A stretch of DNA of 64,000 nt from Nocardioides panacis (lineage in GTDB: Bacteria; Actinomycetota; Actinomycetes; Propionibacteriales; Nocardioidaceae). Location: contig NZ_CP077062.1 in NCBI RefSeq assembly GCF_019039255.1, forward strand, positions 4,526,001-4,590,000, written 5' to 3'. Positions 30,624 through 49,643 of this stretch are shown one piece after another. The first letter of the stretch is position 1; every line of letters starts with the position of its first letter. The notes beneath the pieces were generated by a model. It was not told the origin of the DNA and did no database searches. It worked only from the letters and a program-made list of their open reading frames with translations. A program made the translations under genes and the position numbers.

Positions 30624-30795
30624 GGGTCCGTTTCGTCGGGTAGTGGTGTCCTAGGACTATCGACCCTGGGTGGTTTCGCATGAAAGACGCCCCGGAATCG
30701 TCGCGATCGGTCTAGACCACCCGCGGACCCAGGGCGTCCGCGGACTAGCCCGTTCGAGCCTTTCCCGGGCCCGCGCGGCGGCGCACGATCGAGAG

Positions 30796-31477
30796 ATGGA
30801 CAGCCTGCTCCTGGTGGACGACGAGGTCGCCTTCGCCCGCACGCTGGCGGAGGGCATGGCCGACCGCGGGTTCGACGTGCACCTCGCCCACGACGGGTTC
30901 GAGGGTTACCGGCAGGCCAAGCAGCCCGGCTTCGACGTGGTCGTCCTCGACATCATGCTGCCCCGGATGTCCGGGGTGGAGGTCTGCCGACGGCTGCGCA
31001 CCGAGGACGTCACGACGCCGATCCTGATGCTCACCGCGCGCGAGGGCGACTCGGACGAGGCGGACTCGCTGGACTCGGGGGCGGACGACTACCTGCGCAA
31101 GCCGTTCTCCTTCCAGGTGCTGGTCGCCCGGTGCCGCGCCCTCGTGAGGCGAGGGGGGGCGGGAGGGCTGGTCCGAGCTGATCGCCGGTGACCTCGTGCT
31201 CGAGCCCGCACGGCGCGAGGTCCGGCTGGGACGGAGCGAGCCCGTCCACCTGAGCCGTCGGGAGTCCGCGCTGCTCGAGTACCTCATCCGGACCGGCGGT
31301 GACGTGCGGTCCAAGGAGGAGATCCTCGAGAACGTGTGGGGCGACGTCCAGGATCCCGGGGCGAACCTGGTCGAGGTGTACATCGGGTACCTCAGGCGGA
31401 AGCTCGACCCGCCGGGCGCCGACAGCCTGATCCGCACGCACCGCGGGCAGGGCTACCGGCTGGTGGTCCCTTCGTGA
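30796..31477 (+). CDS. OmpR/PhoB-type response regulator, one frameshift
   Basis: Corrected length 226 residues. Receiver (1-120) with LLVDDE, phospho-acceptor Asp in VVLDIMLPRMSG and LRKPF. Winged-helix DNA-binding domain (about 135-225) with LSRRESALLEYLI and THRGQGYRLV. The two halves lie in different frames, separated by the seven-G run at 31153-31159. Removing one G gives VRRGGREGWSELIAGDLVLE and restores the domain. The downstream kinase overlaps by GTGA, so this is a classical two-component pair. Targets unknown. ATG at 30796 follows a GAGAG-type site. Confidence 0.9.
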
Positions 31478-32899
31478 GCCGGCGGGGCCGCCCTCGCCGC
31501 GAGCCGTCGATGCGCTGGCGCATGGTCGTGGTGGCGACCTCGCTCGTCGCCGTGGTGGTCGCCCTCACCGGGGTGCTCGTCGGCATCGCCATCCGCGAGG
31601 AGCTGGTCGACAACGCCGACGAGGTGGCCCTGGCGCGGGCCGAGCAGCTCTCGGAGCTCGCGGCCCGCGGCGTGCTCCCCGCGGGGATCGCGCGGGCGGA
31701 CGAGTTCGAGGCCGCCGTACAGGTGGTTCGCGCGGGCCGGGTGATCAGCTCCACGTCGAACGCGCCCGGCACCGACTTCTTCCACCTGCCCGCGCAGCCC
31801 GTCGGTGAGGAGGACGTGACCCCGGTGGGCTACCTGCCGATCGACGACGACGGGCCCTACCGGGTGGCTGCAGTGGGGATCGCGACGCCCCGGGGGGACG
31901 CCACGGTGTACGTCGCGGTCGACGTCGAGGACATCGGCGAGTTCCTGGCGACGCTGGCCCGCAAGGGGGGCCGTCGGGCTGACGGTCCTGCTCGCCGTGT
32001 TCGCCTGCGCGCTCTGGCTGGTCGTCGGGCGGACGATCGGCTCGGTGGAGGCGATCCGCCGGCGCGCGGAGCTGATCACCGGGCGACGGCTGGACGAGCG
32101 CGTCCCGGAGCCGACCACGCAGGACGAGATCTTCCGTCTGGCCCGCACGCTCAACGGCATGCTCAGCCGGTTGGAGCGCAGCGCGAAGCGGCAGGAGCGC
32201 TTCGTCGCCGACGCCGCGCACGAGCTCAGGACCCCGCTGACGACGCTGCGCACGCGGCTCGAGACCGCGATGCTGCGCGGCGGCGGCGACGGCGACCCGG
32301 ACCCGGCGCTGCTGTCGGAGCTGTGGAGCCAGACGGTGCGGATGGGCTCGCTGGTCGACCAGCTGCTGCTGCTCGCGCGCAGCGACGCCGGGACGCTCCC
32401 GCACCTCGACCAGCCGGTGGACCTCGAGGACGTGCTGCACGACGTCGTGACGTCCACCCCGTCGGACGGGGTGTCCGTCCGGACCGGGCACGTGGAGCCC
32501 GTGCAGGTGCGGGGCAACGCGGCGCTGCTCGAGCTGGTGGTGCGCAACCTGGTGGAGAACGCGGTGCGGCACGCGACCAGCACGGTGGACCTGTCGTCCA
32601 GCTCGGACGGCACGACCGCGGTGCTCACGGTGGACGACGACGGACCGGGCGTCGCGCCCACGGACCGCGCGGACGTGTTCCATCGGTTCGTCCGGCTCGA
32701 CACCTCCCGGGACCGCTCCCGAGGAGGTGTCGGTCTGGGCCTGGCCATCGTGGCCGAGATCGTCCGGATCCACTCCGGGTCGGTGCAGGTGACCGACTCG
32801 CCGGCCGGCGGCGCGAGGTTCACCGTCCGGCTCCCCGCCGGGCGGCCACCCGCCGAGCACGACGCACCTGCGCCCCAGCGGGTCACCTCGCTCCGCTGA
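31474..32899 (+). CDS. two-component sensor histidine kinase, one frameshift
   Basis: Corrected length 474 residues. TM1 (VVVATSLVAVVVALTGVLVG), an extracytoplasmic region of about 130 residues, TM2 (LTVLLAVFACALWLVV), HAMP, HisKA with VADAAHELRTPL, and HATPase with NLVENAVRHA, DDDGPGV and GGVGLGLAIV. GTG at 31474 overlaps the regulator stop (GTGA). The frame breaks at 31965-31970, where six Gs should be five. The corrected sequence reads LARKGAVGLTVLL, directly into TM2. The break lies exactly between sensor and kinase halves, but this looks like a homopolymer error rather than two genes. Confidence 0.9.
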
Positions 32900-33004: not shown

Positions 33005-34084
33005 TCAGCGGTCGACGTCGCCGCGGATGAAGGCTTCGAGTGCGAGCCGGCCTTGGTCGTCGGCCATCTGCACGGGTGGGGACTTCATCAGGTAGGTCGA
33101 GGCGGACAGGATGGGTCCGCCGATGCCGCGGTCCAGGGCGATCTTGGCGGCGCGGACGGCGTCGATGATGATGCCGGCGCTGTTGGGGGAGTCCCAGACC
33201 TCGAGCTTGTACTCCAGGTTGAGGGGGACGTCGCCGAACGCGCGGCCCTCGAGGCGGACGTAGGCCCACTTGCGGTCGTCGAGCCAGGCGACGTAGTCGG
33301 AGGGGCCGATGTGCACGTTGCGGGCGCCCATGTCGTGGGTCATGTTGGAGGTGACGGCCTGGGTCTTGGAGATCTTCTTGGACTCCAGGCGGTCGCGTTC
33401 GAGCATGTTCTTGAAGTCCATGTTGCCGCCGACGTTGAGCTGGTAGGTGCGGTCCAGGACCACGCCGCGGTCCTCGAAGAGCTTGGCCATCACCCGGTGG
33501 GTGATGGTGGCGCCGACCTGGGACTTGATGTCGTCGCCGACGATGGGGATGCCGGCGTCGGTGAACTTCTGGGCCCACACGGGGTCCGAGGCGATGAACA
33601 CCGGCAGGGCGTTGACGAAGGCGACGCCGGCGTCGATGGCGCACTGGGCGTAGAACTTGTCGGCCTGCTCGGAGCCGACCGGGAGGTAGGCGACCAGGAC
33701 GTCGACCTGCTGCTCCTTGAGGACCGCGACGACGTCGACGGGGTCGGCGTCGGACTCCTCGATGGTCTCGCGGTAGTACTTGCCGAGCCCGTCGTAGGTG
33801 GGGCCGCGTTGCACGCTGACACCCAGCGGTGGGACGTCGGCGATCTTGATGGTGTTGTTCTCGGAGTTGTTGATCGCCTCGGACAGGTCGAAGCCGACCT
33901 TCTTGGCGTCCACGTCGAAGGCGGCCACGAACTCCACGTCGGAGACGTGGTAGTCGCCGAACTTGACGTGCATCAGCCCGGGCACCGCAGCGCTCGGGTC
34001 GGCGTCGCGGTAGTACTCGACGCCCTGGACCAGGGAGCTCGCGCAGTTGCCGACCCCCACGACGGCCAGTCGGAGCAGACCCAT
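33005..34084 (-). CDS. ino1: myo-inositol-1-phosphate synthase
   Basis: 359 residues from ATG 34084 (a GTG at 34093 would add three residues, and both have a plausible GAGG site). Converts glucose-6-phosphate to inositol-1-phosphate, the precursor of phosphatidylinositol, lipomannan-type glycolipids and mycothiol in actinobacteria. Motifs: NAD-binding [76 protein letters not shown]. It closely follows the mycobacterial enzyme. Transcribed away from the glycosyltransferase/kinase cluster across a 374-base gap. The proximity raises the question whether inositol is a substrate of that cluster (inference only). Confidence 0.95.
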
Positions 34085-34093
34085 CTTCGCCAC

Positions 34094-34458: not shown

Positions 34459-34459
34459 A
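34391..34459 (+). CDS. possible 22-residue leader peptide
   Basis: ATG at 34391 opens a 22-codon frame (MTRTLLSVPTPARGHHPRTG...) whose TGA shares its last base with the ATG of the glycosyltransferase (TGATG), the same junction used twice elsewhere in this window. A G-rich stretch precedes it. Translational coupling would make sense, but an ORF this short can arise by chance and there is no homology to lean on. Confidence 0.2.
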   Translation: MTRTLLSVPTPARGHHPRTGGH

Positions 34460-35732
34460 TGCGCACCGATCCTTCCGAGCCGCGCCTGCTGATCTACTCG
34501 CAGGACGGGCTCGGCCTGGGGCACCTGCGCCGGACGACCCTGCTCGCAGGGGAGTTCCTGGCCACACGGCCGGGGGGGCAGCGTGCTGACGATCTCGGAC
34601 TCCCCCGCTCGGCCAGTTCTTCACCGCCGCCGCGGGGCACGACTACCTCAAGCTGCCGTCGATCCGGAAGGTGCGGCCGGGCCACTGGGCACCGGTCTCG
34701 CTGTCCGCGCCGTTCCAGGACGTGCTGGCGCTCCGCAAGGAGACCATCCGCAGCGTCGCGTCGAGCTTCGTGCCGGACGTGGTGCTCGTGGACCACATGC
34801 CGCACGGGGCGATGGGCGAGCTCGTCCCGACCCTCCAGGCACTGTCGGAGACGCCGGCGCGGATGGTGCTCGGGCTGCGCGACATCCTGGACGCGCCGGC
34901 CACCGTCCGCCGCCGCTGGCGGCTGGAGGGAGCGCTCGAGGCCCTCGAGAGCTACTTCGACGAGGTGCTGGTCTACGGCTCGGAGGACGTCTTCGACGTC
35001 GCGGGGCAGTACGCCTGGCCCACCAGCATCCGGGACCGGCTCCGCTACTGCGGCTACGTCTGCGCCCCGGCCCCGGCTCCGCTGGCCGACACGGTGCGGC
35101 GGCTGCACCTGGCCGACCATCCGGACGCCCAGCTCCTGGTGGCGATGGCCGGCGGCGGTGCGGACGGGTTCGAGCTGTTCGACGCGCTGCTGCGGGCCCT
35201 CCCGGCCGTCGCGGAGGAGCAGCCCTGCGTCCTGGTCCTCGTCACCGGTCCCTTCCTCCCCGAGGAGGAACGCGCGCGCCTGGAGCGGCTCGCCGTCGGG
35301 CTGCCGGTGCACATCCTTCACCAGGTCGACGACTCCCTGAGCTACCTGAGCGCGGCCGACCTGGTGATCGCGATGGCGGGCTACAACACCACCTCGGAGA
35401 TCCTGAGCACGGGTGCCCGGGCCCTGCTCGTGCCCCGGAAGGGACCCAGCGCCGAGCAGCAGATGCGGGCCAGCCGCTTCGCTGAGCGAGGGTGGGTGAA
35501 GTGGCTTCCCCCGGCCGAGCTGTCGAGCACCACCCTGGCGGCCGCGGTCCTGGACGCCCTGGACCGGCCGGTCGGCTGCGCGGGTCGTCCCCCGGACCTG
35601 CTGGGCCGCCAGCGTGCCGCGCGCCACCTGCTCAACGGCGGTGCCCAGGAGGACACGGACGCAGCGGTGCTGTCCGCGACCGGGTCCGACGACCTTCTCG
35701 GGGTGGGCCCGCAGCTGCTCGGCAAGGTCTGA
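34459..35732 (+). CDS. GT-B fold glycosyltransferase (MurG/GT28-like), two frameshifts
   Basis: Corrected length 423 residues. N-terminus RLLIYSQDGLGLGHLRRT is the glycine-rich acceptor loop of MurG/GT28-like enzymes. Later VTGPFLP, HQVDDSLSYLSAADLVIAM and GYNTTSEIL...ALLVPRKG form the nucleotide-sugar binding half. Two +1 errors near the start (seven-G run at 34572-34578 and five-C run at 34602-34606) split the frame. Removing one base from each gives VLTISDSPLGQFFTAAAGHD. First gene of a co-directional cluster with kinase-fold proteins and an exporter. The next start is 2 bases away. Donor and acceptor unknown. Confidence 0.8.
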
Positions 35733-35734
35733 CC

Positions 35735-37121
35735 GTGGAGCTGTCGGAACGCCCCAGGAGCGCGGGGCCGGCCGCGCTCGGCCCGCTGCTGGGGGGGGAC
35801 CCTCGGGCAGGACCCGGTACGTCGCCTGTGCGCGGACCCGCTCGGGCACGGCGTGGGCGAGCTGCTCGGCGAGTGCCTGTCGGACGCCGGGGCCTGGCGG
35901 CTGGACCTGCTGCAGTCGAAGTTCAAGCCGGGCCGCAAGCTGACCGCCTACTACCGCCTGGCGCCCGCCCGGCCCTCCCCGCCGACCGCCGGCGAGGACG
36001 GGGTCCGCGCCCGGCACCTGGCCGTCACCTGGTCCGTGGACCGGCAGCCGGCGGCGTCCGCGATGCCCGGGACCGGGCGTCCCCAGCCACCCTTCGAGCG
36101 GCTGGTCACGGCCTCCGAGGACGGCCGGATCGTCGTCCGCATCTGCCCCGACGACCCGGCGATGCCGCAGCTGCCGCGGCTGGCCGACCCCGGCCACCTC
36201 GCCGGCCTGGTCGCGGACCTGTGCGGGCGCCGCTTCGCCACCCGGCAGCTCACGGTCGACACCGTGCGGTACCGGCCCGGGCAACGTCACGTCGAGCGGG
36301 TCCGGCTCGACGGCCACCCGTGGATGTACGTGAAGACGGACCGGGACTGCTCCGGTGCGCGCGCCGTCGCCGTCGCGACGTACCTGCGCGACCTCGTCGG
36401 CCAGCACCCCGTGCACGCAGCGGTCGCGCTGCCGCTGGGGTACGTCGCCGAGGACGCCGCGGCCCTCTGGTGGAACGTGCCCGGGGTGCCGCTGTCGACG
36501 CGGCTGCGGGCGCCCCGCGCGGACGGATCGGTGCGGGCGGTCGCCCAGGCCGGCCGGGTGCTCAGGGTGCTGCACGAGAGCCCGACCGGGCCCGAGTCGT
36601 TGCGGGACAGGGGCGGGCCGGAGGCGGTGCACGTCGAGGCGGAGGAGACGCTCCGGGCCGGCGAGCACGTGCGGGCGCTGCTCCCGGACGTCGGCCCGGC
36701 CTACGAGGACGCCGTCGAGCAAGTGGTCGAGGAGCTGGACCGGATGCCGGGGGAGGCCGCGGTCGTCAGCCACGGCGACTTCAAGTCGGACAACCTCGTC
36801 GTCGGCGACGACCGGCTCACGGTCCTCGACCTTGACCGGGCGGCGTGGGCGGACCCGGCGAGGGACCTCGGCAAGCTCCTGGCGGACCTGCACTGGTGGT
36901 GCCCCGACCCGTCCGCCGCCACCGTCCTCGGCAGGTCGTTCCGCGAGGGGTACGGCGCCTGCGACCCGGCCCGGTGGGGCCGGGCCCGGCTCTGGACGGC
37001 GCTGTTCCGGCTCCGGATGACCGCGCGCCGCCTCCCGGTGCACGACGTCGACTGGGCCGACCGGGCCCGCGGCGGGGTCGCCGACGTCGTCGAGGGCCTG
37101 CGGGCGTCGCGAGGCTCCTGA
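35735..37121 (+). CDS. APH/maltokinase-fold phosphotransferase, one frameshift
   Basis: Corrected length 461 residues. The kinase core is intact: His346 and Asp348 in HGDFKSDNLVV and the DxD of VLDLDRAAWADP. The N-terminal half carries two signatures shared with its neighbours, MPQLPRLADP and VRYRPGQR, followed by a Lys (MYVKTD) that could contact ATP. These proteins transfer phosphate to sugars, choline, aminoglycosides and similar small hydroxyl compounds. The frame breaks in the eight-G run at 35791-35798 (should be seven). The GTG at 35735 is 2 bases after the glycosyltransferase stop. It is the only copy with a canonical Asn after HGD. Acceptor unknown. Confidence 0.75.
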
Positions 37122-39298
37122 TGGCCGGACCAGCGACGCTCGACACCTCCACGGCCCGCCGCCTCGCGAGGCTCGACCCCGCGCTACGGCTGCTGCCGCA
37201 CGCGCTCCCCGCGGCCTGGACGACCGCCCCGTACGTGCTGCACGACCTCCAGTGGGCACCCGGCGAGCGGTGCCGGCTCGTCGTGCGGCTCCGGGACCCG
37301 AGCGGGGCCGGGACGTTCGTGTCCGTCGACGTACGGCCGGACGGCTGGTCGCGCCACGACTACCGCGACGACGCCGGGCTGCCCGGCCTGCCGGGCGCCG
37401 CGGACCCCGAGCAGGTGTGCGCCCTGCTGGCGCCGCGGCTCGACGGCCCGGTCCGCACGTGCCGGGTCGAGGCGGTCCGCTACCGGCCGGGTTCGAGGTG
37501 CGTGCTGCGCTACGACGTCCGGACCGGGACGACCTGGACGGCCCTGTACGCCAAGGTCCTGGCGCCCGCCCCGTTCGTCGAGGCGGTCCGCGTGCAGCAG
37601 GCGCTGGCCGCTCCCGTCGACGACCGGCCGGTGCTGGTGCCGCGGCTCGTGTCGGTCTGGCCGGACCAGCAGACGATGGTCGCCGAGGCGGTGCCCGGGA
37701 GCTCCGTGTCCACGCTGATCGCCGGACCGGGGACGACGGAGGGTGGGCGGCTGCGCGTCGCCCACGACCTCGGCGCCCTGCTCGCCGCCTTCCACGCCCA
37801 CCGGGCCGCTCCCGCGCGCCGGTGGTGCCCGTCCGAGCAGCTCGCCGCGCTGGAGTCCCTGCTCGCCGCCGCCCGGGTCTGCGACCCCGCCACGGCCGAC
37901 CGGGCGAGCCAGCTGCTGGACCGGCTGGCCTCCCGGCCTCCGCCGCCCCCCGCCGAGGTGCTGGCGCACGGCGGCTTCCGGGCAGGGCAGGTGCTCCGCT
38001 CTCCCGCGGGGCGGCTGGTGGTCCTCGACACCGACGGCGCCCGCAGGTCGGACCCGTGCGCGGACCTGGGCACCGCCCTGGCCCACCTGCGCTGGTGCGC
38101 GGTGCGCAGCCCCGGCCGGCGCACCACGCTGCTCGGGGCGGAGCAGGCCTTCCTCTCGGGGTACGCCGCCGGGGCCGGCGACCCGGACCCGGCGGCGCTC
38201 GCGTGGTGGCACGCCGCCGGGCTGCTGCAGGTGGCGTTGCGGCGCTATCGGCGGCTGGAGGTGGCCGCGTGGGGACGGCTGCCCGCGCTCGTCGACGCAG
38301 CCTCGGACCTGCTGGACCGTCACCGCCACCCGGGAGCGTCGACGGTGGCCGACCCGCTCGACGTCCGGCAGATGACCCGGGTGCTGCGAGAGGCGGTGAC
38401 CCGGCGCGCGGGGTGCGGGACGCCCGTCGTGGTCGAGTCGGCCACCGAGCTCCGCTCCGCGCACGGCGGGCGCAGCGTCGTCCGGTACTCCGTGCGGGGT
38501 CTCGACGGTGCCGCGCCGGTGTCGGTCGTCGCCAAGCGGTTCACCGAGCAGCGGCGCGCCCAGCTGCTCTACGACCACCTCGGCCAGCTCGACGCCGGGC
38601 CGTTCGCCGACGGACCGCTCCGGGTCCCCGCCCCGGTCGCCTGGGTCCCCGACCTGCGGCTGGTCGTCTACCGGCACTGCGAGGGACTCCCGCTGCACCG
38701 GCTCACGCCGCCCGCGAGCGCGGTGCACGGCGCCCGCCGGGCCGCGCGGTGGCTGGCGCGCCTGCACGCGTCCGACGTACGCCTGCCGCGGACCCTCTCG
38801 CTGGACCAGGAGGCGCGCAGCACCCGGGAGTGGGCGTGGCTGATCGGCGACCGTCACCCCCGCCTGGCCGCGCAGGCCGACGAGCTCGCGCAGGCCTGGC
38901 TGGCCGCGGCCCGGGCCGCCACCGGGGTGACCGTCGTGCCGATCCACAAGGACTTCCACCCGGGGCACGTGCTCGTCGGCGGCGACCTCTCGGTCATCGA
39001 CCTCGACGAGGCGCGGAGCGGCGACCCGACCTTCGACGTCGCGCACTTCTGCTGCTACCTCGGGCTGCTGTCCCCGGACGGGGGCGGAGCCGCCCGGGAC
39101 GCCTTCCTCGCGGAGTACGTGGGAGCGACGGGCTGGCGGGACCCCGGCAGCCGCGGCGCGTTCTCCGCCTACACGTGGCTCAAGATCGCCAAGCAGTACG
39201 CCGTCGGCACCGGACCCCAGCAGCCCGTCCCGGCCGCGCGGCGTGCCGACGAGGTCGGGCGAGCGCTCGCCGAGGGGGCGCGATGCCTGAGCGGGTGA
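37121..39298 (+). CDS. double APH/maltokinase-fold protein, first domain degenerate
   Basis: 725 residues with two kinase-fold domains. Domain 1 (about 1-410) has the cluster signatures LPGLPGAADP and VRYRPGSRC plus an ATP-contact-like Lys (ALYAKVLA), but its catalytic loop is HGGFRAGQV: Gly285 replaces the catalytic Asp, while the later DTD remains. Domain 2 (about 440-720) has VVAKRF, Asp611 in HKDFHPGHV and VIDLDEA, so it should be active. The first half may be a regulatory or binding pseudokinase. ATG at 37121 shares a base with the previous stop (TGATG). The end overlaps the next gene by 16 bases. The acceptor cannot be predicted. Confidence 0.75.
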   Translation: MAGPATLDTSTARRLARLDPALRLLPHALPAAWTTAPYVLHDLQWAPGERCRLVVRLRDPSGAGTFVSVDVRPDGWSRHDYRDDAGLPGLPGAADPEQVCALLAPRLDGPVRTCRVEAVRYRPGSRCVLRYDVRTGTTWTALYAKVLAPAPFVEAVRVQQALAAPVDDRPVLVPRLVSVWPDQQTMVAEAVPGSSVSTLIAGPGTTEGGRLRVAHDLGALLAAFHAHRAAPARRWCPSEQLAALESLLAAARVCDPATADRASQLLDRLASRPPPPPAEVLAHGGFRAGQVLRSPAGRLVVLDTDGARRSDPCADLGTALAHLRWCAVRSPGRRTTLLGAEQAFLSGYAAGAGDPDPAALAWWHAAGLLQVALRRYRRLEVAAWGRLPALVDAASDLLDRHRHPGASTVADPLDVRQMTRVLREAVTRRAGCGTPVVVESATELRSAHGGRSVVRYSVRGLDGAAPVSVVAKRFTEQRRAQLLYDHLGQLDAGPFADGPLRVPAPVAWVPDLRLVVYRHCEGLPLHRLTPPASAVHGARRAARWLARLHASDVRLPRTLSLDQEARSTREWAWLIGDRHPRLAAQADELAQAWLAAARAATGVTVVPIHKDFHPGHVLVGGDLSVIDLDEARSGDPTFDVAHFCCYLGLLSPDGGGAARDAFLAEYVGATGWRDPGSRGAFSAYTWLKIAKQYAVGTGPQQPVPAARRADEVGRALAEGARCLSG

Positions 39299-40548
39299 TC
39301 TACGTGGTCCGGAGCTGGCCCCGGCTCTCGCAGACCTTCATCGTGAACGAGGTGCTGGCACTGGAGCGCCGGGGGCTGGAGCTGGTCGTCTGCAGCCTGG
39401 TGCGCTCCGGGGAGGTCATCGTCCAGCCGCAGGTCGCGGACGTGCGCGCCGAGGTGCGCTACCTCGACGACCTCGAGCACGGTGCGCGCAGCGTCCGCCG
39501 GCAGCTGGCCTCGTGCGTCCGCGCGCCGGTCCGGTCGCTGCGCGCGCTGCTCGAGTGCCTGCGCCACCCGCGGCTGGCCGCCGGGTACGGCGAGTGCTCG
39601 GCGCTCGAGTGCCTCCGGCACGCGACGTCCCTCGCGGCCGTCGTCCGGGAGATCCGCGCGCACGGCGACGAGCCGGTCCGGGTGCACGCGCACTTCGCCC
39701 ACGACCCGGCGCTGGTCGGGATGCTCGCCGCCCGGCTCACCGGCGTCCCCTTCAGCTTCACCGCGCACGCCCGCGACCTGTTCGAGATCCCCCCGGAGAG
39801 CCTGGCGGCCCGGGCCCGGGAGGCGACCGCCGTGGTGACGTGCTGCGCGGTGAACGCCGCCTACATCGAGTCGGTGGTCCCGCCCGGGGACAGGCCGCCG
39901 GTGCGGGTGATCCACCACGGCGTCGACCTGCGGCGGTTCGCGCCCTCGGGGCACCCGGCCCCGGGCCCGGTCCCGCTCCTGGTGTCGGTGGGCCGGCTGG
40001 TCGAGAAGAAGGGGTTCCCCGACCTGCTCCGCGCACTGCGCCTGGTCAAGGAGCGCGGGCTGCGGTTCCAGGTCCGCGTCCTCGGTGACGGACCGCTGCT
40101 CGGTGAGCTGGTCCGGCTGCGCGACGAGCTCGGCCTGACCGGCGACGTCGAGCTGCCGGGGGCGGAGGACAGCGACGCCGTCGTCCGGGCGCTGCGGGAC
40201 GCCACCGCGTTCGCGCTGACCCCGCGGGTGCTGGCCGACGGCGACCGGGACGGGATCCCGAACGTGCTCGTGGAGGCGATGGCGTGCGGGCTGCCCGTGG
40301 TGACCACCACCGCGGGCGGGATCACCGAGCTCGTCGCGCACGACGTGAACGGCCTCCTCGCCGAGCCCGGGGACGTCCCCGGCATCGCCGACTCGCTCGC
40401 CCGGGTGCTGACCGACGCGGGGTCGCGGACCAGGCTGGGCGCGGCCGCCCGGCAGACGGTGGAGCGGGGCTACGACACCGACGAGGCCGCCTCCTGCCTC
40501 GAACGGGTGCTCAGGGCCGGCGCCCCGGTCCCGGAGGCCGCCCGATGA
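39283..40548 (+). CDS. GT4-family glycosyltransferase
   Basis: 421 residues, GT-B fold. N-terminal half: VIYVVRSWPRLSQTFIVNEV, a start typical of GT4 enzymes of capsule and exopolysaccharide loci. C-terminal half: VSVGRLVEKKGFPDLLRAL, then the retaining-enzyme EX7E motif in GIPNVLVEAMACGLPVVTT. Transfers a sugar from a nucleotide donor, probably in the cytoplasm at the membrane face. It sits inside the kinase cluster and overlaps both neighbours (16 and 4 bases), so it must belong to the same pathway. Intact, no frameshift. Confidence 0.9.
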   Translation: MPERVIYVVRSWPRLSQTFIVNEVLALERRGLELVVCSLVRSGEVIVQPQVADVRAEVRYLDDLEHGARSVRRQLASCVRAPVRSLRALLECLRHPRLAAGYGECSALECLRHATSLAAVVREIRAHGDEPVRVHAHFAHDPALVGMLAARLTGVPFSFTAHARDLFEIPPESLAARAREATAVVTCCAVNAAYIESVVPPGDRPPVRVIHHGVDLRRFAPSGHPAPGPVPLLVSVGRLVEKKGFPDLLRALRLVKERGLRFQVRVLGDGPLLGELVRLRDELGLTGDVELPGAEDSDAVVRALRDATAFALTPRVLADGDRDGIPNVLVEAMACGLPVVTTTAGGITELVAHDVNGLLAEPGDVPGIADSLARVLTDAGSRTRLGAAARQTVERGYDTDEAASCLERVLRAGAPVPEAAR

Positions 40549-41873
40549 CCACCGCGCCACGCGGTCTCGCCGGGCCGGCCGCCGCCCTGGGACCGGCACG
40601 ACCCGAGGCGGACCGGTTCGCGGAGATCCTGCGCCCGCGGGTGATGGGTCCACGGCTGGCCGACGCGCTCGGCGGCCGGGTGCGCACCTGCCACGTGCTG
40701 GATGCGAAGTACGAGCCGGGCGTCCGGGCGACCGTGCTCTACGAGCACGACGGGGCCTGGGTCCGCGGCGACCTCGTCGCCGAGGGCGACGTCGGGGTCG
40801 GCCGGGCTCTCGTCGTGGCGCCCGGGCTCCGGATCAGCGTCTTCCCGGAGGACCCGGACCTGCCGAGGCTGCCACGGGTCATGGACCCCGCCCACCTGGG
40901 GCCGGCCCTGGCCGACGCCCTGCGGGGCACGGCGCTGCCGGACGCTCCGCACGGCGTCCGGTGCCGCACCGCGCCGATCCGCTACCGGCCGGGCAGACGC
41001 GTCACCCTGCGGGTCGACCTCGTCGGTGCGGCCGGTGCGGCCGGTGCGTACGTCGCGAAGGTCTACCACGACGCCCGGAAGGCGGCCGCCGTCGTCGCGG
41101 AGGCGCCGGCCCTGGCGGAGCACGCCGGCACGTGCGACGTGCTCCGGATCCCCGCCACGGTCGCCCACCTGCCCGCGGACGGCGTGGTGGTCCAGGCAGC
41201 CGTGGCCGGCCGACCGCTCGAGGCGCTGCTGGGCCGGTCCCTCGCCACGCCCGGCGGGGTGGCGGCGGCGACGGAGGCCACGGTGCGCACCGCCCGCGCG
41301 CTGGCCGACCTGCACCGGATGCCGCCCGACACCGGGCGGGCGCGGTCGGCCGACGCCGAGGTGGAGCGGTTCGCCCACCGTGCGCTGGGCGTCGCCGGTG
41401 CCGATCCCCGGACGGGCGCCGCGCTCGTGCGGCTCGCGGACCGGCTGCGGACCGCCCGGGAGCAGGTGCCGGGCGCCGTCCCGGGCACCGTGCACGGGGA
41501 CTTCAAGCCGAGCCAGGTGCTGCTGGGTCGCCGGCACGTGCTGCTGATGGACCTGGACCACCTGGCGGTGGCGGACCAGGCTATGGACGTGGGCACGTTC
41601 CTCGCCTCGCTCCGCCAGCTCCCGCTGCGGAGCTCGGGCGCGGACCCGTGCCGCCTGGGTGAGGTGCTCCCGGTTCTGCGAGCAGCGTTCCTGGCGTCGT
41701 ACCTCGAGGCCCGGGGGTGCGAGGTCTCGCCTGCCCGGATCGGCTGGCAGGAGGCGGTAGCGCTGGAGCGCAAGGCGCTGCGGGCCTGGGCGCGGGCGCC
41801 CGGTTCGCCGGTCGCGCTCGTCCTGGCGGGAGAGGCGGAGGCCTGCCTGGACGGCCTCACGGAGACGCCATGA
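40545..41873 (+). CDS. APH/maltokinase-fold phosphotransferase
   Basis: 442 residues, intact. Shares LPRLPRVMDP and IRYRPGRRVTLRVD with the other cluster kinases, then YVAKVY (candidate ATP Lys). Catalytic loop HGDFKPSQVLL has His317 and Asp319, with Gln where aminoglycoside kinases have Asn. The same Gln is found in actinobacterial maltokinases. LMDLDHLAVAD supplies the metal-binding Asp. ATG overlaps the previous stop by ATGA and its own stop overlaps the ABC exporter by ATGA, the tightest coupling possible. Substrate probably a sugar or polyol inside this cluster's pathway (inference). Confidence 0.8.
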   Translation: MTTAPRGLAGPAAALGPARPEADRFAEILRPRVMGPRLADALGGRVRTCHVLDAKYEPGVRATVLYEHDGAWVRGDLVAEGDVGVGRALVVAPGLRISVFPEDPDLPRLPRVMDPAHLGPALADALRGTALPDAPHGVRCRTAPIRYRPGRRVTLRVDLVGAAGAAGAYVAKVYHDARKAAAVVAEAPALAEHAGTCDVLRIPATVAHLPADGVVVQAAVAGRPLEALLGRSLATPGGVAAATEATVRTARALADLHRMPPDTGRARSADAEVERFAHRALGVAGADPRTGAALVRLADRLRTAREQVPGAVPGTVHGDFKPSQVLLGRRHVLLMDLDHLAVADQAMDVGTFLASLRQLPLRSSGADPCRLGEVLPVLRAAFLASYLEARGCEVSPARIGWQEAVALERKALRAWARAPGSPVALVLAGEAEACLDGLTETP

Positions 41874-44800
41874 GCCACGTCGCGACGACTCCTGGAAGCG
41901 ACCGCGCGGGCGACCTGCGGCGCACGCTGCGCATCTTCCAGCAGTTCACCGGCAGCAGGAAGCCCTACGTCGTGGGCTTCCTGCTGCTGACGATCGAGTC
42001 CGCCACCGCGGTCGTCGAACCCTGGCCGATCTCCTACCTGGTCGACTTCCTGCAGGGGAACAAGCCCCCGCTCACCACGCCGGGCTCCTCGGCGGGACTC
42101 CTCTCGGAGCGGGTCACCACCATCTTGGTGCTCACGGTCGCGATCCTGCTGCTGGCCGCGGCGAACAGCGCCGCGGACTCGCTGACCGAGGTCAGCCTGG
42201 CTCGCGCCGGTCGGTCGCTGGGCTACCGGATCCGGGTCGCGATGTACTCCCACCTGCAGCGGCTCCCGCTGGCCTACCACGACAAGCGGCGCACCGGAGA
42301 CGTGCTCACCCGGGTGACCGGCGACGTCCTGGTCCTCGAGGACTTCGTGGTGAAGTCGGTCAGCAACATCGTGGGCAGCCTGATGGTCCTGGTCGGCAGC
42401 TTCGCCTTCCTGCTCTACCGGTCGTGGCAGGTGGCGGTCGTCGCGATCGTGGTGATCCCGCTGCTCGCCGTGGTGTCGAACCACTACTCGCGCCGGATCA
42501 AGGTCGCGGCCAAGACGCAGCGCACCCGGGAGGGCGAGCTCGCCTCGACGACGCAGGAGATGCTCACCTCGATCCGGCTGGTGCAGAGCTACGGGCGGGG
42601 CGTCGTCGACCTGGCCCGGTTCTCCGGCCAGACCGAGCAGAGCATGCAGGCGTCCCTGACGTCCGCGAACATCCAGGCGCGGTTCAGCTTCGCCATCGCG
42701 CTGCTGGAGGCGCTGTGCATCTCGGCGGTCATCTGGCTGGGGGTGTGGCTGGTCGACCACGACGCCATCACCGTCGGCACCCTCGTGCTGTTCGTCCTGC
42801 TGCTGCAGAACATGTTCCGGCCGGCCCGCAAGATCGTCGGTGAGTGGTACAAGGTCGGCAAGGTCTTCGCCAGCGTCGACAGGATCGTGGACCTCCTGGA
42901 CCGGGAGGTGGTCGTCCAGGACGCCGTGGACGCCGTGGTGGCCCCGCCGCTCAGCGGCCGCCTCGCGTTCCGGCACGTCGGCTTCACCTACCCCGTCGAG
43001 CGCGAGGACGGGACCAGGAGCGCCGGTCGCGCGACGGTGCTGAAGGACGTCGACTTCGAGGTCTCGCCGGGCGAGGTGGTGGCCCTGGTGGGCCCGAGCG
43101 GCGCCGGCAAGAGCACCATCGCCGGGCTGGTGCCGCGGCTGTACGACACCGACGAGGGCGAGGTCCTCGTGGACGGTCGGCCGGTGCGGTCCCTGACCCT
43201 GGAGTCGCTCCGGGCGCAGGTGAGCGTGGTCCTGCAGGACACCGTGCTGCTGACCGGCACCGTGGCCGAGAACATCGGCTACGGGGTCGTCGAGGCCGAC
43301 GACCGGGACATCGAGGCGGCGGCCCGGCTGGCCAACGCCCACGACTTCATCATGGCGATGCCCGAGGGCTACGCCACCCAGCTGGGCGAGCGGGCAGCCA
43401 CCCTGTCCGGGGGCCAGCGCCAGCGTCTGGCCATCGCCCGGGCGTTCATCCGCAAGGCGCCGATCCTGATCCTCGACGAGCCGACGACGGGGCTCGACCG
43501 CGAGTCGGCCGACGTCGTGGTGCAAGCCCTGCGCAGCCTGATGAGCGAGGCGACGACCATCGTCGTCTCGCACGACCCCGCGCTGGTCGCGTGCGCGGAC
43601 CGCGTCCTGCGGGTCTCCGACGGCCGGGTCGTCGAGGACGAACGCCGCGAGCCGCCGCCGGACCTCCTGCAGCCGCCGGTCGCGAAGCCGGTCGGGCAGC
43701 CGGTCGGGCAGCCGGTCGGGACCACCCCGGCGCCGTACGTCGACCGGCCGGCCGCCGACCCGCTGCTGCGCCCGCTGCTGGCCCGGCTCCCCGGCGTCGC
43801 ACGGGCGCTCGACGTCGACCTCGTCGCGGACCGCATCCGGCGGGACCTGCTGCGTGAGGGCGCGCAGATCGAGCGGATCACGGCGGAGAAGCACTGGATG
43901 GCCGCGGACGGCACCTTCGGGCTCCGGTACCTCGTGCGGGCCGGCGCCGAGCGCGGCGACGAGCCCGACGAGCTCCAGGTGAGCGGTCGCGTGCACCGGG
44001 ACCCGGCGTCCGCGCGGGCGTCCCTGGTCGACCTGTCCACGTCGCGGGCGGGGCCGTGGCGACGCCCCACCGCGGTGGTGGAGAAGGCGGGGCTCGCGCT
44101 GACCGGGTTCCCCGTGGACGCGGACCTCCCCACGCTGGCCCGTGCCATGGGGGCGGGGGCGTTGCGGGGGTTCGCCCCCACCCGGACCGGCGCGGGGCCG
44201 TCGGTGGAGGTGGCCCACCGCCCGCGGGAGGGCGCGTGCACGCTGCGGTACCGGTTCGTCTCGGGGCGCGGCCCGTCGCACGGCCAGCCCCGGCGCACGC
44301 TCTACGGCAAGGTCTACCCGGACGACAGCGGGGCGCGGGTCGACGGGTACCTGCGCGCACTGGTGCGGGACCGCGGCAGACGGCTGCCGTTCCCGGCGCG
44401 GTTCCCGACGTCGGTCGCCTACGTCCGGGGCATGCGCCTGCTGGTCACGGCCGAGCTCGCGGGCGAGGCGGTCGTGCCGCGGCTGCTCAAGGCCGCCCTG
44501 GCGCCGACCGGCGACTCGACCGCGCCGGCCGGCACTGCCCTGCACGCCGCCGTCCGGGACTCGGGCCGCGCGCTCGCGTCGCTGCACGCGGCACACGTGG
44601 CCAAGGCGCCGGTGCGGCTGCCGCGGGACGAGCTGGCCACCCTGCGCCGCGACCTCGACCTGGTCGCGGGGGTCTGGCCGGACGTGGCGGCCCGGGTCGT
44701 CAGCGGCGACTGGGCGTCGAGGGACGCGCCTGAGCCCGCGCAGCTCGTCCTGTCGCACGGGGACTTCACGCCGTCGCAGGTGCTGCTGTGCCCGGGGCGC

Positions 44801-45112
44801 ACGCCGGCCGTGCTCGACCTCGACACGCTCTGCTGGGCCGACCCGGCGCAGGACCTCGGCCGCTACCTCGCCCACCTCCTGCTGCTGGCCGGCAGGTACG
44901 GCGACCCGGCCCCGGGCGACACGCTCGAGCGCCTGGCCCAGGAGCTGGTGGGCGGGTACCTCGAGGCGTCCGGCGGCACCGGGCCGTCCCCGGACCCGGA
45001 GCGCATCACGTTCTTCATGACCACGTCGCTGGCCCGGGCGGCCCTCAACTCCTGCCGCCAGCTCAAGAGCCACCGCCTCGAGCTCGCCCTGTCCCTGCTC
45101 GACGACATCTAG
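41870..45112 (+). CDS. ABC exporter fused to an APH/maltokinase-fold domain
   Basis: 1080 residues. Residues about 1-330 are a type-I exporter membrane domain with six spans. The ATPase follows, with Walker A GPSGAGKST (408-416), signature LSGGQ (512-516) and Walker B LILDEP (Asp536, Glu537). A linker with the repeat KPVGQPVGQPVG (about 605-616) leads to a kinase-fold domain (about 630-1080) with catalytic loop HGDFTPSQVLL (His963, Asp965), LDLDTLCWADP and a candidate ATP Lys in LYGKVYPDD. The frame is uninterrupted, so the fusion is real in this sequence. Probably a homodimeric exporter with a cytoplasmic kinase tail, coupling phosphorylation to export or controlling the pump. I know no characterised protein with this build. 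Confidence 0.85.
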   Translation: MSHVATTPGSDRAGDLRRTLRIFQQFTGSRKPYVVGFLLLTIESATAVVEPWPISYLVDFLQGNKPPLTTPGSSAGLLSERVTTILVLTVAILLLAAANSAADSLTEVSLARAGRSLGYRIRVAMYSHLQRLPLAYHDKRRTGDVLTRVTGDVLVLEDFVVKSVSNIVGSLMVLVGSFAFLLYRSWQVAVVAIVVIPLLAVVSNHYSRRIKVAAKTQRTREGELASTTQEMLTSIRLVQSYGRGVVDLARFSGQTEQSMQASLTSANIQARFSFAIALLEALCISAVIWLGVWLVDHDAITVGTLVLFVLLLQNMFRPARKIVGEWYKVGKVFASVDRIVDLLDREVVVQDAVDAVVAPPLSGRLAFRHVGFTYPVEREDGTRSAGRATVLKDVDFEVSPGEVVALVGPSGAGKSTIAGLVPRLYDTDEGEVLVDGRPVRSLTLESLRAQVSVVLQDTVLLTGTVAENIGYGVVEADDRDIEAAARLANAHDFIMAMPEGYATQLGERAATLSGGQRQRLAIARAFIRKAPILILDEPTTGLDRESADVVVQALRSLMSEATTIVVSHDPALVACADRVLRVSDGRVVEDERREPPPDLLQPPVAKPVGQPVGQPVGTTPAPYVDRPAADPLLRPLLARLPGVARALDVDLVADRIRRDLLREGAQIERITAEKHWMAADGTFGLRYLVRAGAERGDEPDELQVSGRVHRDPASARASLVDLSTSRAGPWRRPTAVVEKAGLALTGFPVDADLPTLARAMGAGALRGFAPTRTGAGPSVEVAHRPREGACTLRYRFVSGRGPSHGQPRRTLYGKVYPDDSGARVDGYLRALVRDRGRRLPFPARFPTSVAYVRGMRLLVTAELAGEAVVPRLLKAALAPTGDSTAPAGTALHAAVRDSGRALASLHAAHVAKAPVRLPRDELATLRRDLDLVAGVWPDVAARVVSGDWASRDAPEPAQLVLSHGDFTPSQVLLCPGRTPAVLDLDTLCWADPAQDLGRYLAHLLLLAGRYGDPAPGDTLERLAQELVGGYLEASGGTGPSPDPERITFFMTTSLARAALNSCRQLKSHRLELALSLLDDI

Positions 45113-45128
45113 GCAAGGAGCACCGCCC

Positions 45129-46590
45129 GTGACCACCACCTACGACGCGACCTCGGTCGTCGCATCCCTCGCCGCCTTCGGCCGGCTGCCCGAGTGGCTG
45201 GCCGCCGGGATGGACGCGCCGCGGCTCTGCGCGGGCCTGGCCCGCCGGGTGCCCGAGCTCCGCGACGGACGGCTCCGGCTGCTCGCCTGCTCGCCCGAGC
45301 GGTTGCGCGCCAAGGACGACGAGTGGCGGGCGCGCTACACGGTCGTGGTCGCGGAGCCGGGAGGTGCGCCGCGCGACGTCGTCCTCGTCGGCAACCTGTG
45401 GCCGCCCGGACGGCAGCCGACGCCGACGGAGGGCGACCCCGAGGTCCCCTTCGGCGATCCCGGGTGGCGGTGCGCGCTGCCCGATCCGAGGCTCGACCTG
45501 CAGGTGCAGACCGCGGACGACGCGCTCCCCGCCCTGCCGCAGCTGGCCGACCCGACCCGGGCGGCACGACTGCTGGAGCCGGTCCTGCGGGACGCGGGCT
45601 ACCGGGACGCCACGATCGCCACCTGCGACCCGGTCGTCGTGCGCTACAAGCCCGGGAGCCGCTGCACGGTCGTGGTCGGCCTGACCTACGCCGACCGGTC
45701 GACCGACCCGGTGCCGCCGGACCGGGTCGTCGTCAAGACCCACCACGGCGACAAGGGGGGAGTCCGCGTGGGAGGCGATGAACGCGCTCTGGCAGCCCCC
45801 ACGACCGTGGGCCGCGGCCGTGCGGCTGGCCGAGCCGCTGGGATACCTCGCGGACGAGCGGATCCTGGTGCAGGGCCCGGTGCCGGGGGACCGGCTCCTC
45901 AAGGACCTGGCCCGGGAGGCGATCGTCGAGACCGGCGACCGGCTCGACGCGTTCCGGGTGCAGCTGACGGCCACCGCGCGAGGGCTCGCCGCGGTGCACC
46001 GGTCGGGTGCGTCGTACGGGCGGACGGACACGCTCGAGGAGGAGCTGGACAAGGTGCGCGAGGTCGTCGAGAGGCTGGCGACCAGCGTGCCCGAGCTGGC
46101 CGCCGCCGCACGACCGCTCGTCAGCCGCCTCACCGAGCTGGCCGCGGACACCGACCCGGACCCGGTCGTGCCGTCGCACCACGACTTCCGGCCGGCCCAG
46201 GTGCTGCTCGACGGGGACGACGTCGCGTTCGTCGACTTCGACGGCGCCTGCATGGCCGAGCCCGCGCTCGACGTCGGCAGGTTCCGCGCCAAGCTGCGGG
46301 ACACCGGCATCTCCGCGTTCGGTCCCGACGCCCCGGTGCCGTCCCCGGAGTGGGTCGAGGCGAACCTGGCGCTCGTCGACGACTTCTGCGAGCAATTCCT
46401 GGCCGACTACCAGAGATGGACGCCGGTCTCGCGCGACCGCGTGCTGCTGTGGGAGACCTGCGACCTGCTCACGACCCTGCTGCACGCCTGGACCAAGGTG
46501 CGGGTGGCCCGCGTCGAGCAACGGCTCACCCTGCTCGTGCACCAGATCGGCACCGGCGGACTCCTGGACCGGGACGCGCCACGGTCCTGA
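45129..46590 (+). CDS. APH/maltokinase-fold phosphotransferase, one frameshift
   Basis: Corrected length 486 residues. N-terminal half contains LPQLADP and VRYKPGSRCTVVV plus VVVKTHHGDKG. The C-terminal half has VPSHHDFRPAQVLL (catalytic Asp352, Gln in the Asn position) and VDFDGACMAEP. The halves are in different frames at the six-G run 45755-45760. Removing one G gives KGESAWEAMNALW. GTG at 45129 lies 16 bases after the exporter stop with AGGAG in between. Last kinase of the cluster. The mannosidase follows 31 bases later. Confidence 0.75.
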
Positions 46591-46621
46591 GGCCGCGCCA
46601 CCGACGTGCGAGGGTGGCGGC

Positions 46622-49600
46622 GTGCACCGCAACCTCTACGACCCGGTCCTCCGCATCGAGCGCACCCTGAGCCGGATCCGCTCGGCGACGTACGTCGACC
46701 GGCATCCCGTCGCGGTCGAGGTGCAGCACCTCGCCGGCGAGCCCGAGCCGTTCGCCGACGTCGTACGACGCCCGTTCGAGCCGTGCGAGGTCGGCCTGGC
46801 CTGGGGGCCCGCCTGGTCCACCAGCTGGTTCCACCTGACCGGCGACGTGCCGGCGTCCCTGCGCGGCCGGACCGTCGAGCTGCACGTCGACCTGGGCTTC
46901 ACCGCCGCGACGCCCGGCTTCCAGGCCGAGGGGCTGGCCTACGCCGCGGACGGCCGGGTCCTCAAGGGCATCGAGCCGCGCACGTCCTACGTCCCGGTGA
47001 CCGGCGACCGCGTCGACGTCTACGTCGAGGCGGCCGCCAACCCCACGGTCTTCGTCGCGGGCTTCCCGCGGACCCCGCTGGGCGACGTGCTGACCGCTCC
47101 CCGTGACCCGCTCTACCGGCTGGCCCGGGCCGAGCTGGTCGCCGTCGAGACCGAGGTGCGCGCGCTCGGCCACGACGTCGAGGTGCTGCTCGGCACGGTC
47201 ACCTCGATGCTCGAGGGCGACCCGCGCCGCGCCCGGGTGCTCACCGCGCTCCAGGCGATGGCCGACGGGCTCGACGTGAACGACCTGGCCGGGGGCGCCG
47301 CCGCGGCCCGCGGACGGCTCGCCGACGTCCTCGCCGCACCCGCCAACGCCAGCGCCCCGCTCGTCTCGGCCGCCGGCCACGCGCACATCGACTCGGCCTG
47401 GCTGTGGCCGGTCCGCGAGACCATCCGCAAGTGCGCGCGCACCTTCGCGAACGTCCTCGCGCTGGCAGAGGAGCACGAGGACCTGCGGTTCGCCTGCTCG
47501 TCGGCGCAGCAGTACGCCTGGATGCAGCAGCACCACCCCGACCTCTTCGAGCGGATCCGGGCCGGCGTGGAGTCCGGCCACTTCGTGCCCGTCGGCGGCA
47601 TGTGGGTCGAGTCCGACACGAACCTGCCCGGCGGCGAGGCGCTGGTCCGACAGCTCGTGCACGGCACCCGGTTCTTCGCCGAGGAGCTCGGCGTCGAGAC
47701 CGACGAGGTGTGGCTGCCCGACTCGTTCGGCTACACCGGCTCGCTGCCGCAGATCGCCCGGCTGGCCGGGAAGAAGTGGTTCCTCAGCCAGAAGATGTCC
47801 TGGAACCAGACCGACGACTTCCCGCACCACACGTTCTGGTGGGAGGGCATCGACGGCACCCGGGTGTTCACGCACTTCCCGCCCACGGACACCTACAACG
47901 CCGAGGTGACGCCGGCCGAGCTCGCCCGGGGGATGTCGGAGTTCCGGGAGGCCGGCCCGGCCTCCCGCTCGCTGCTGCTCTTCGGGTACGGCGACGGGGG
48001 CGGCGGCCCGACCCGGGAGATGGTCGAGCGGGCGCACCGGTTCGCCGACCTCGAGGGCATGCCCCGGGTCCGGCTCGAGTCGCCGGCGGAGTTCTTCGTC
48101 GGCGCCCAGGAGGAGTACGCCGACGCGCCGGTGTGGTCCGGGGAGATGTACCTGGAGTACCACCGCGGCGTCTACACCTCGCAGATCGCGATGAAGCAGG
48201 GCAACCGCCGCACCGAGCACCTGCTCCGCGAGGCCGAGCTGTGGTGCACCCTGGCCACCCTGCGCACCGGGGCGGCCTACCCCTACGACGAGCTCGAGCG
48301 GCTCTGGCGCTCGACGCTGCTGCTGCAGTTCCACGACATCCTGCCGGGCAGCTCGATCGCGTGGGTGCACCGCGAGGCCCGCGCGACCTACGCCGAGCTG
48401 GCCGGCGCGCTCGAGACGGTCATCGGCACGGCGCTGCGCGCGCTGGCCGGCGACGGCTCGGTGCCGGTGGCCTTCAACGCCTCCCCGTTCGCCGTCGACG
48501 GGGTGCCCGCGCTGGGCGGCGGTCCGGTCGCGCCCGCGGGTGCGGCGACCACGCTGACCGCGGGCGAGGCCGGCACGATCCTGCAGAACGAGCACCTCCG
48601 CGTCGAGGTGGACGCCCGCGGCCTGGTCGTCTCCGTCCTCGACCTGGCCGCCGGCCGCGAGGTGCTGACCTCCCCGGCGAACCTGCTCCAGCTGCACCCC
48701 GACACCCCGAACCGGTTCGACGCCTGGGACGTCGAGGCCTATGCCACGCACCGCGTCACGTCCCTGCACGACGCGGTCTGCCTGGACAGCCGGCTGCTCG
48801 ACGACGGGACGGCCGAGCTGCACGTCGTACGCACCGAGGGGCCGTCCACGTTCGACCAGTGGGTGCGGCTGGCGCCGGGCAGCCGCCGGGTCGACTTCGA
48901 GACGACGGTGGACTGGCAGCACGACGAGACGCTGCTCAAGGTGGCGTTCCCGCTCGACGTGCACGCGGACCGCTCCACCTCGGAGATCGGCTACGGCCAC
49001 GTGCACCGCGCGACGCACACGAACACCGGCTGGGACGCGGCGCGCTTCGAGATCTGCGCGCACCGGTGGATCCACGTCGGCGAGCCGGGGTACGGCGTCG
49101 CGCTGGTCAACGCCGGCACCTACGGCCACGACGTCGCGCGCTCCCGCAGCGGCGAGCGCCGCGGCCCGAGCCCGACCACGGTGCGGCTCACGCTGGCCCG
49201 CAGCCCGCGCTTCCCGGACCCGGACACCGACCGCGGCACGCACACGTTCCGCTACGGGCTGGTCGCTGGTGCGGAGCTTCCGGCCGCGGTCGAGGAGGGC
49301 TACCGGTTCCACCTGCCCACCCGGTCGGTCCTCGGCGCCCGACCCGTCGAGCCGGTGGTCCGGGTCGTCGCGGGGCACGCGGTGGTCGAGGCCGTGGAAG
49401 CTGGCCGAGGACCGCAGCGGCGACGTCGTGGTGCGCGTCTACGAGCCGTACGGCGGTCGCAGCGACGTGCTGCTGCGGCCGGGGTTCGACGTCGCGGACG
49501 TCCGGGTCACCGACCTGCACGAGCACGACGACGAGGTGGCCGCGACGCTGTGCCCGGTCGACGTACGGGAGGACGGGGTGGCCCTGCGGCTCGGACCCTT

Positions 49601-49643
49601 CCAGATCGTCACCCTCCGCTGGGTGCGCCGACCGGTCGCCTAG
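46622..49643 (+). CDS. alpha-mannosidase, glycoside hydrolase family 38, one frameshift
   Basis: Corrected length 1006 residues, normal for bacterial GH38 enzymes. Zinc-binding motif HAHIDSAWLW (His253, His255, Asp257), catalytic nucleophile region WLPDSFGYTGSLP (Asp367), and QFHDILPGSS further on. No signal peptide, so it acts in the cytoplasm on imported or recycled mannosides. An extra G at 49396-49397 shifts the last about 80 codons. With it removed, EAVKLAEDRSGDVVVR continues the beta-sandwich tail. GTG at 46622 with no strong ribosome-binding site. Its TAG stop overlaps the DeoR regulator stop in one CTAG. It may be co-transcribed with the kinase cluster or belong to the sugar locus downstream. 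Confidence 0.9.

Follow-up and report, generated by a model that had tools for sequence, protein, structure and literature searches.

A conserved glycosyltransferase, multi-kinase and ABC exporter block in Nocardioides panacis and its possible role in glycoconjugate phosphorylation and export

Gene content of the block

The closed 4.9 Mb genome of Nocardioides panacis has, in the window analysed here (its positions 4526001-4590000, a stretch of 64,000 nucleotides in which features are numbered below), a block of seven plus-strand genes, g1 to g7, at 34459-46590. Pfam and NCBIfam scans give the domain order GT28-C, aminoglycoside phosphotransferase (APH), double APH, GT4, kinase-like, ABC_membrane with ABC_tran and APH, and finally APH. 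They confirm what the initial annotation had recognised from the letters and open frames, namely two glycosyltransferases and an ATP-binding cassette (ABC) exporter ending in a kinase-fold domain. The genes are tightly packed: 2 nts separate g1 from g2, the g2/g3, g3/g4, g4/g5 and g5/g6 junctions are overlaps of 1, 16, 4 and 4 nts respectively, and a gap of 16 nts precedes g7. These measured spacings bear out the description of seven consecutive plus-strand genes in which no overlap or gap exceeds 16 nts.

The first gene, g1 (34459..35732, +), encodes a glycosyltransferase with a GT28 C-terminal domain (PF04101, 2.9e-12), and so of GT-B fold by family, whose best PDB profile match is a MurG chain (1.2e-6). 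It differs from MurG in scoring 33.6 bits with TIGR01133 where the cut-off is 250.25, a score for the larger piece of this frame-broken gene and not for the whole protein. The second glycosyltransferase, g4 (39283..40548, +), is of the GT4 family (PF00534, 1.2e-31), matches the EpsE model NF041876 at 2.7e-51, which is under its cut-off, and has BshA and PimB-type enzymes as PDB matches.

The exporter, g6 (41870..45112, +), has a whole ABC exporter architecture like that of MsbA, with PF00664 (144.6 bits) and PF00005 (118.8 bits) both over cut-off, Walker A, LSGGQ, Walker B and H-loop motifs all present, and a C-terminal kinase (PF01636). However, with the MsbA model TIGR02203 it reaches 389.9 bits against a cut-off of 602, and it further differs from MsbA in the fused kinase and in its actinobacterial host, which lacks lipid A. 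In the window and eight relatives a single frame encodes both exporter and kinase; they are in separate frames in five of 13 relatives (L030, L031, L033, L035 and L037, the last of which itself has frame changes linked to G/C runs). Phycicoccus has a second, divergent exporter and kinase pair (L034:478-4614; 51% and 32% identical) beside its main block.

Six kinase-fold domains and their conservation

Six kinase-fold domains had been claimed for the block, and six are found: g2, the two halves of g3 (g3a and g3b), g5, the g6 C-terminus and g7. Two of them need qualification, g5 being recognised through its predicted structure and g3a lacking the catalytic Asp. The HGDxKxDN motif of g2 (35735..37121, +; PF01636, 1.5e-18) is present in the window and in all 11 relatives where g2 was found (12/12). 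In the double gene g3 (37121..39298, +; PF01636 in two stretches) the HxD catalytic loop is absent from the first domain, where Gly, Ala or Ser replaces the catalytic Asp in all 13 rows of alignment A5 (HG[GAS]F); judged by this alignment g3a is a conserved pseudokinase. Its partner g3b keeps the Asp in 13/13 rows, in a loop that is mostly HKDFHxGH (single rows have HRDFHAGH, HRDLHAGH and HKDLHLGH). Both HGDxKPxQ in g5 (40545..41873, +) and HGD[FLY]TPxQ in the g6 kinase are present in 14/14 rows, and the active-site motif of g7 (45129..46590, +; HHDFRPAQ; PF01636, 5.8e-10 on the second piece) is kept in the eight rows that cover it. The HxD loop together with the DxD metal site, as expected of the APH superfamily, is found in g2, g3b, g5, the g6 kinase and g7.

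Though g5 has no Pfam APH match, its AlphaFold2 model (predicted local distance difference test score 87.6) has the APH/maltokinase fold when compared with Foldseek and VIA-align, and its nearest Foldseek neighbours include glucosamine kinase and maltokinase (4u94, 6hwl). With these it shares fold, N-terminal extension and a HGDxxxxQ-type loop, which we take to be that of maltokinase. Identity, however, is 14-18%. In the part of PMC6520443 available to us, Q-x(2)-RE-x(2)-YA-x(3)-LP-x-W is given as a signature of actinobacterial glucosamine kinase, and the gene neighbourhood described there is unlike that of the block; the signature is absent from every block protein piece searched.

In a tree of the kinases, each of the six positions forms a single clade (support 96-100/87-100, with g7 sampled in 6 rows). 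From their sequences, the six are old, specialised paralogues co-inherited as a set.

An alignment of GT28 proteins gave 19 named loci, in which the block genes were then sought with tblastn. Among the 13 relatives with enough flank (L028, L032 and L036, on short contigs, were excluded from this count), 11 have the same order of GT28, kinase, double kinase, GT4, kinase, ABC plus kinase, and kinase, though the last gene is just partly covered in L030, L031, L033, L034 and L037. These 11 loci are from five Actinopolymorpha-group genomes, a Nocardioidaceae metagenome-assembled genome, Blastococcus, Modestobacter, another Geodermatophilaceae, Phycicoccus and Georgenia. As for the other two, Geodermatophilus L035 lacks g2, and in L083, where g2 was not found, a rearrangement has placed GT28 and a g3a-like kinase on the opposite strand. 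The same order in 11/13 relatives and the position-specific kinase clades strongly support the proposal, made initially from tight coupling, that the genes serve one pathway. Homologous blocks lacking most members, which would have spoken against it, are not seen in the close relatives; the diverged loci often lack the full kinase set.

All 13 relatives have a core of GT28, GT4, ABC exporter and kinases inside 12 kb. Of 31 diverged loci that span 10 kb or more, 19 have it too; these belong to other Actinobacteriota, Dormibacterota, Planctomycetota and KSB1. In a Rokubacteria locus (L044:7251-18789) this search found all of the core but GT4; MIPS (myo-inositol-1-phosphate synthase), GT28, four kinases, an ABC exporter and UDP-glucose dehydrogenase form a single run there. 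Four fetched alphaproteobacterial plasmid loci have GT28 and GT4 relatives, and no APH kinase was seen in these four. Any such GT28, at E 1e-20, is found in 10/197 family, 15/296 class and 18/396 phylum genomes, in samples that overlap and include this genome; the window type (>600 bits) is in 3/197 of the family sample. A plasmid search with GT28 gave 275 records, all below 60% identity (ten Escherichia plasmid records are among them), and one with g5 gave no match. On a 37 kb Manganitrophus plasmid (L021, CP114557.1), relatives of GT28, GT4 and the kinases occur together with genes for a radical SAM protein, a histidine phosphatase and an alginate-lyase-family protein. In N. panacis itself there is a second, diverged cluster at about 1.65 Mb (L057, G000:C1:1641000-1660900) comprising GT28, ABC exporter, two GT4, APH, GT28 and kinase; it adjoins a GH16 gene and frame breaks occur there too.

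Linked uronic acid and inositol genes, and the proposed pathway

A clue to the sugar comes from an extended short-chain dehydrogenase/reductase (SDR) resembling UDP-glucuronic acid 4-epimerase, whose gene adjoins GT28 in 14 of 17 loci, the window counted (L036, with too little flank, is not among the 17). Among PDB entries it matches 6zl6 and MoeE5 best, presumably both UDP-glucuronate 4-epimerases (for 6zl6 a match in residue numbering supports this). Pro85, Arg185, Gln211 and Thr280 are invariant in all 12 rows aligned, 11 of them from the 14 GT28 neighbours and one a further SDR of L038. As far as the consulted part of PMC12338863 goes, Arg185 contacts the product carboxylate in the Bacillus cereus UDP-glucuronic acid 4-epimerase, and Pro85, Gln211 and Thr280 differ in UDP-xylose and UDP-glucose 4-epimerases. 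UDP-glucose 6-dehydrogenase is encoded about 10 kb or less from GT28 in seven loci (L028, L029/L061, L044, L059, L062, L096 and L023). Both UDP-uronate enzymes have homologues in this genome (51% and 62% identical), unlinked to the block and some 60-75 kb from it.

Divergent from the block is a MIPS gene (33005..34093, -; TIGR03450, 700 bits against a cut-off of 638), of which this genome has a second copy, 97% identical in protein, at G000:C1:4121223-4122302. Three lineages, represented by the window, L028, L039, L043 and L044, have MIPS close to the cluster, in two different types; the L028 genes are arranged as MIPS, dehydrogenase, epimerase, GT28. By a rough Poisson estimate, which assumes a gene density and 40-60 loci, the probability of linkage in three lineages by chance is 0.0016-0.005.

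The best explanation of the block, whose chance we put at about even, is one pathway which assembles, phosphorylates and exports a small, uronic-acid-containing and probably lipid-linked glycoconjugate; it would be an apparently new variant of ABC-dependent glycoconjugate assembly. UDP-glucose would be converted to UDP-glucuronate and UDP-galacturonate by the enzymes whose genes adjoin the cluster in relatives and are elsewhere in this genome. At the inner face of the membrane the MurG-like g1 would transfer a sugar onto an acceptor that is probably a lipid and may contain inositol, and g4 would extend the glycan. The kinases would phosphorylate different positions, of the glycan itself and not of free sugars or something else, with the pseudokinase domain of g3 as a regulator or scaffold. 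The MsbA-like g6 would flip the product, and its fused kinase may add or recognise the last phosphate and so license export, making it depend on phosphorylation, as O9a O-antigen export does on WbdD capping. Of the initial working idea, glycan assembly and export gain support from the gene content and from the UDP-uronic-acid genes beside the cluster in relatives; that the glycan is phosphorylated we only infer.

Kinase-fold enzymes are known to phosphorylate glycans in some lipopolysaccharide and O-antigen systems, most of them Gram-negative. If the reading is true, six dedicated kinase domains in one actinobacterial operon, one exporter-fused, would open phosphate-gated glycan export to testing in this group, and suggest that some genes carrying an 'aminoglycoside phosphotransferase' annotation are something other than resistance genes. 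A close parallel is Escherichia coli O9a, where, according to the portion of PMC3482155 consulted, WbdD ends the chain by phosphorylation and export requires that the chain be terminated. In common with the model, the glycan is assembled in the cytoplasm, is acted on by a kinase-fold enzyme and is exported by an ABC transporter that needs the chain capped. However, WbdD is similar to eukaryotic protein kinases and has a methyltransferase attached, where the block has six APH-type domains, and O9a chains leave through Wzm/Wzt, with its carbohydrate-binding module, in place of an MsbA-like exporter fused to a kinase. A bolder and rather doubtful proposal is a new class of glycoconjugate machinery in which APH-fold glycan kinases phosphorylate a uronic-acid (perhaps inositol-anchored) glycolipid stepwise and gate its export. 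It would cover the tandem kinase-pseudokinase and the kinase built into the exporter, with looser versions in several phyla.

Several observations weigh against the best explanation. The probable lipid linkage rests on resemblance to MurG and MsbA, both of whose cut-offs are missed, and the block has no lipid-carrier or priming enzyme. No member has a known enzyme activity, one of the six kinase domains is a pseudokinase, and the others could act on free sugars. The window, L030 and L083 have no linked epimerase. Twelve of the 31 diverged loci (some on short contigs), all four alphaproteobacterial ones included, do not show the core in full, and diverged loci often show one to three kinases only. 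MIPS is common (15/20 genomes or records, 6/14 controls), is linked in three lineages only, and its chance estimate depends on the assumptions given above.

Alternatives to the proposed exported phosphoglycan

If the product were instead a soluble phosphorylated pseudo-oligosaccharide, an antibiotic or signal, the kinases could serve for self-protection or activation and the exporter for secretion. Such a secondary-metabolite pathway would suit the patchy distribution (window-type GT28 in 3/197 family genomes, any GT28 in 18/396 phylum genomes), and corramycin phosphotransferase and APHs are among the solved kinases nearest to those of the block. The part of PMC6520443 seen also places actinobacterial glucosamine kinases in predicted biosynthetic clusters. 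It is nevertheless unlikely: the block lacks scaffold synthase, aminotransferase and cyclitol dehydrogenase, six kinase domains of separate ancient lineages exceed the needs of self-protection, and the Dormibacterota, Planctomycetota and KSB1 versions, with the alphaproteobacterial plasmid GT28/GT4 relatives, better suit a surface glycan. We hold it similarly improbable that the block serves a teichuronic-acid-like or capsule-like cell-envelope glycopolymer, its carrier made elsewhere, with g6 exporting and the kinases modifying repeat units. The UDP-glucose dehydrogenases do match TuaD (under cut-off) and g4 matches TuaC weakly, polysaccharide deacetylase and histidine phosphatase accompany 4/4 and 3/4 of the fetched alphaproteobacterial loci, and the Manganitrophus plasmid has its alginate-lyase-family gene. 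There are, however, just two glycosyltransferases, and no polymerase, Wzm/Wzt-type transporter or ligase in the block. That the kinases feed sugar activation, from free sugar to sugar phosphate in nucleotide-sugar salvage, and do not phosphorylate a glycan, could explain the Foldseek neighbours of g5. It is quite improbable given that the block has no nucleotidyltransferase and, in the pieces searched, no glucosamine kinase signature, and an exporter-fused kinase would be odd for salvage.

Known system types were also considered. Pfam scans of 10 flanking open reading frames (ORFs) at E 1e-3 and 20 further window ORFs at E 1e-10, short or ambiguous ORFs lying outside the scan, revealed no aminotransferase, glycan polymerase or lipid-carrier enzyme, so the earlier statement to that effect stands for the ORFs scanned. 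The conclusion drawn with it, that neither an aminoglycoside nor a standard capsule locus fits, agrees with the gene content found. Aminoglycoside resistance or biosynthesis is rejected since APH family models are far under cut-off and the scanned ORFs have no supporting genes. LxmK, the class V lanthipeptide kinase, has weak profile matches to several block kinases and a fold match to g5, though the block differs in having glycosyltransferases. It reaches at most 43.1 bits among the matches listed (for g6, among the best 25 families) against 315 for NF038156, and a lanthipeptide system is also rejected. So is anti-phage defence, as PADLOC matches of the seven proteins or pieces are confined to the g6 ABC ATPase region (mad3 5.6e-35, mad8, AriA). 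In searches of an open-access library for the block or parts of it, no paper, judged by titles and abstract starts, could be tied to this block.

Frame breaks and flanking genes

Codon-position GC and frame comparison reveal that g1, g2 and g7 are not single open frames in this assembly. Their frames change near G/C runs, at about 34.57-34.61 kb, 35.78 kb and 45.76 kb respectively, and ORF coordinates such as 45778-46590 span just part of one gene, g7. In relatives all three are single intact frames (g1 homologues there are 63-64% identical), and both window pieces of g7 fall in one frame. Assembly error is more likely than gene decay as the cause, since G/C runs of six or more within clear coding sequence are at a same-strand frame change in 18 of 38 cases in this genome (nine stretches including the window) against none of nine long runs in a same-genus genome and three of 23 in other relatives (14 stretches), all three in L037. 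Decay is accordingly disfavoured. The genome-wide run scan flagged, among the three breaks of the block, that of g7 alone, and some changes it flagged elsewhere may be ordinary gene boundaries. A direct ortholog test of the frame breaks (chromosome ends) found no comparable pairs. The counts suggest homopolymer errors across the assembly, and that gene calls near long G/C runs need care.

The GH38 alpha-mannosidase gene directly downstream (46595-49768, +) was rejected as an eighth member, having no relative in the 103 fetched loci. Upstream, a response regulator and histidine kinase (30655..32899, +; PF00072, PF02518) are a possible, weakly linked regulator of the block, or could be generic; similar response regulators (42-46% identity) precede the block in four Geodermatophilaceae loci (L030, L031, L033 and L035), with a similar histidine kinase (39%) in L030. 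At 54.4-58.6 kb, apart from the block, a zinc dehydrogenase and an SDR are grouped with a Dak kinase and sugar-uptake genes.

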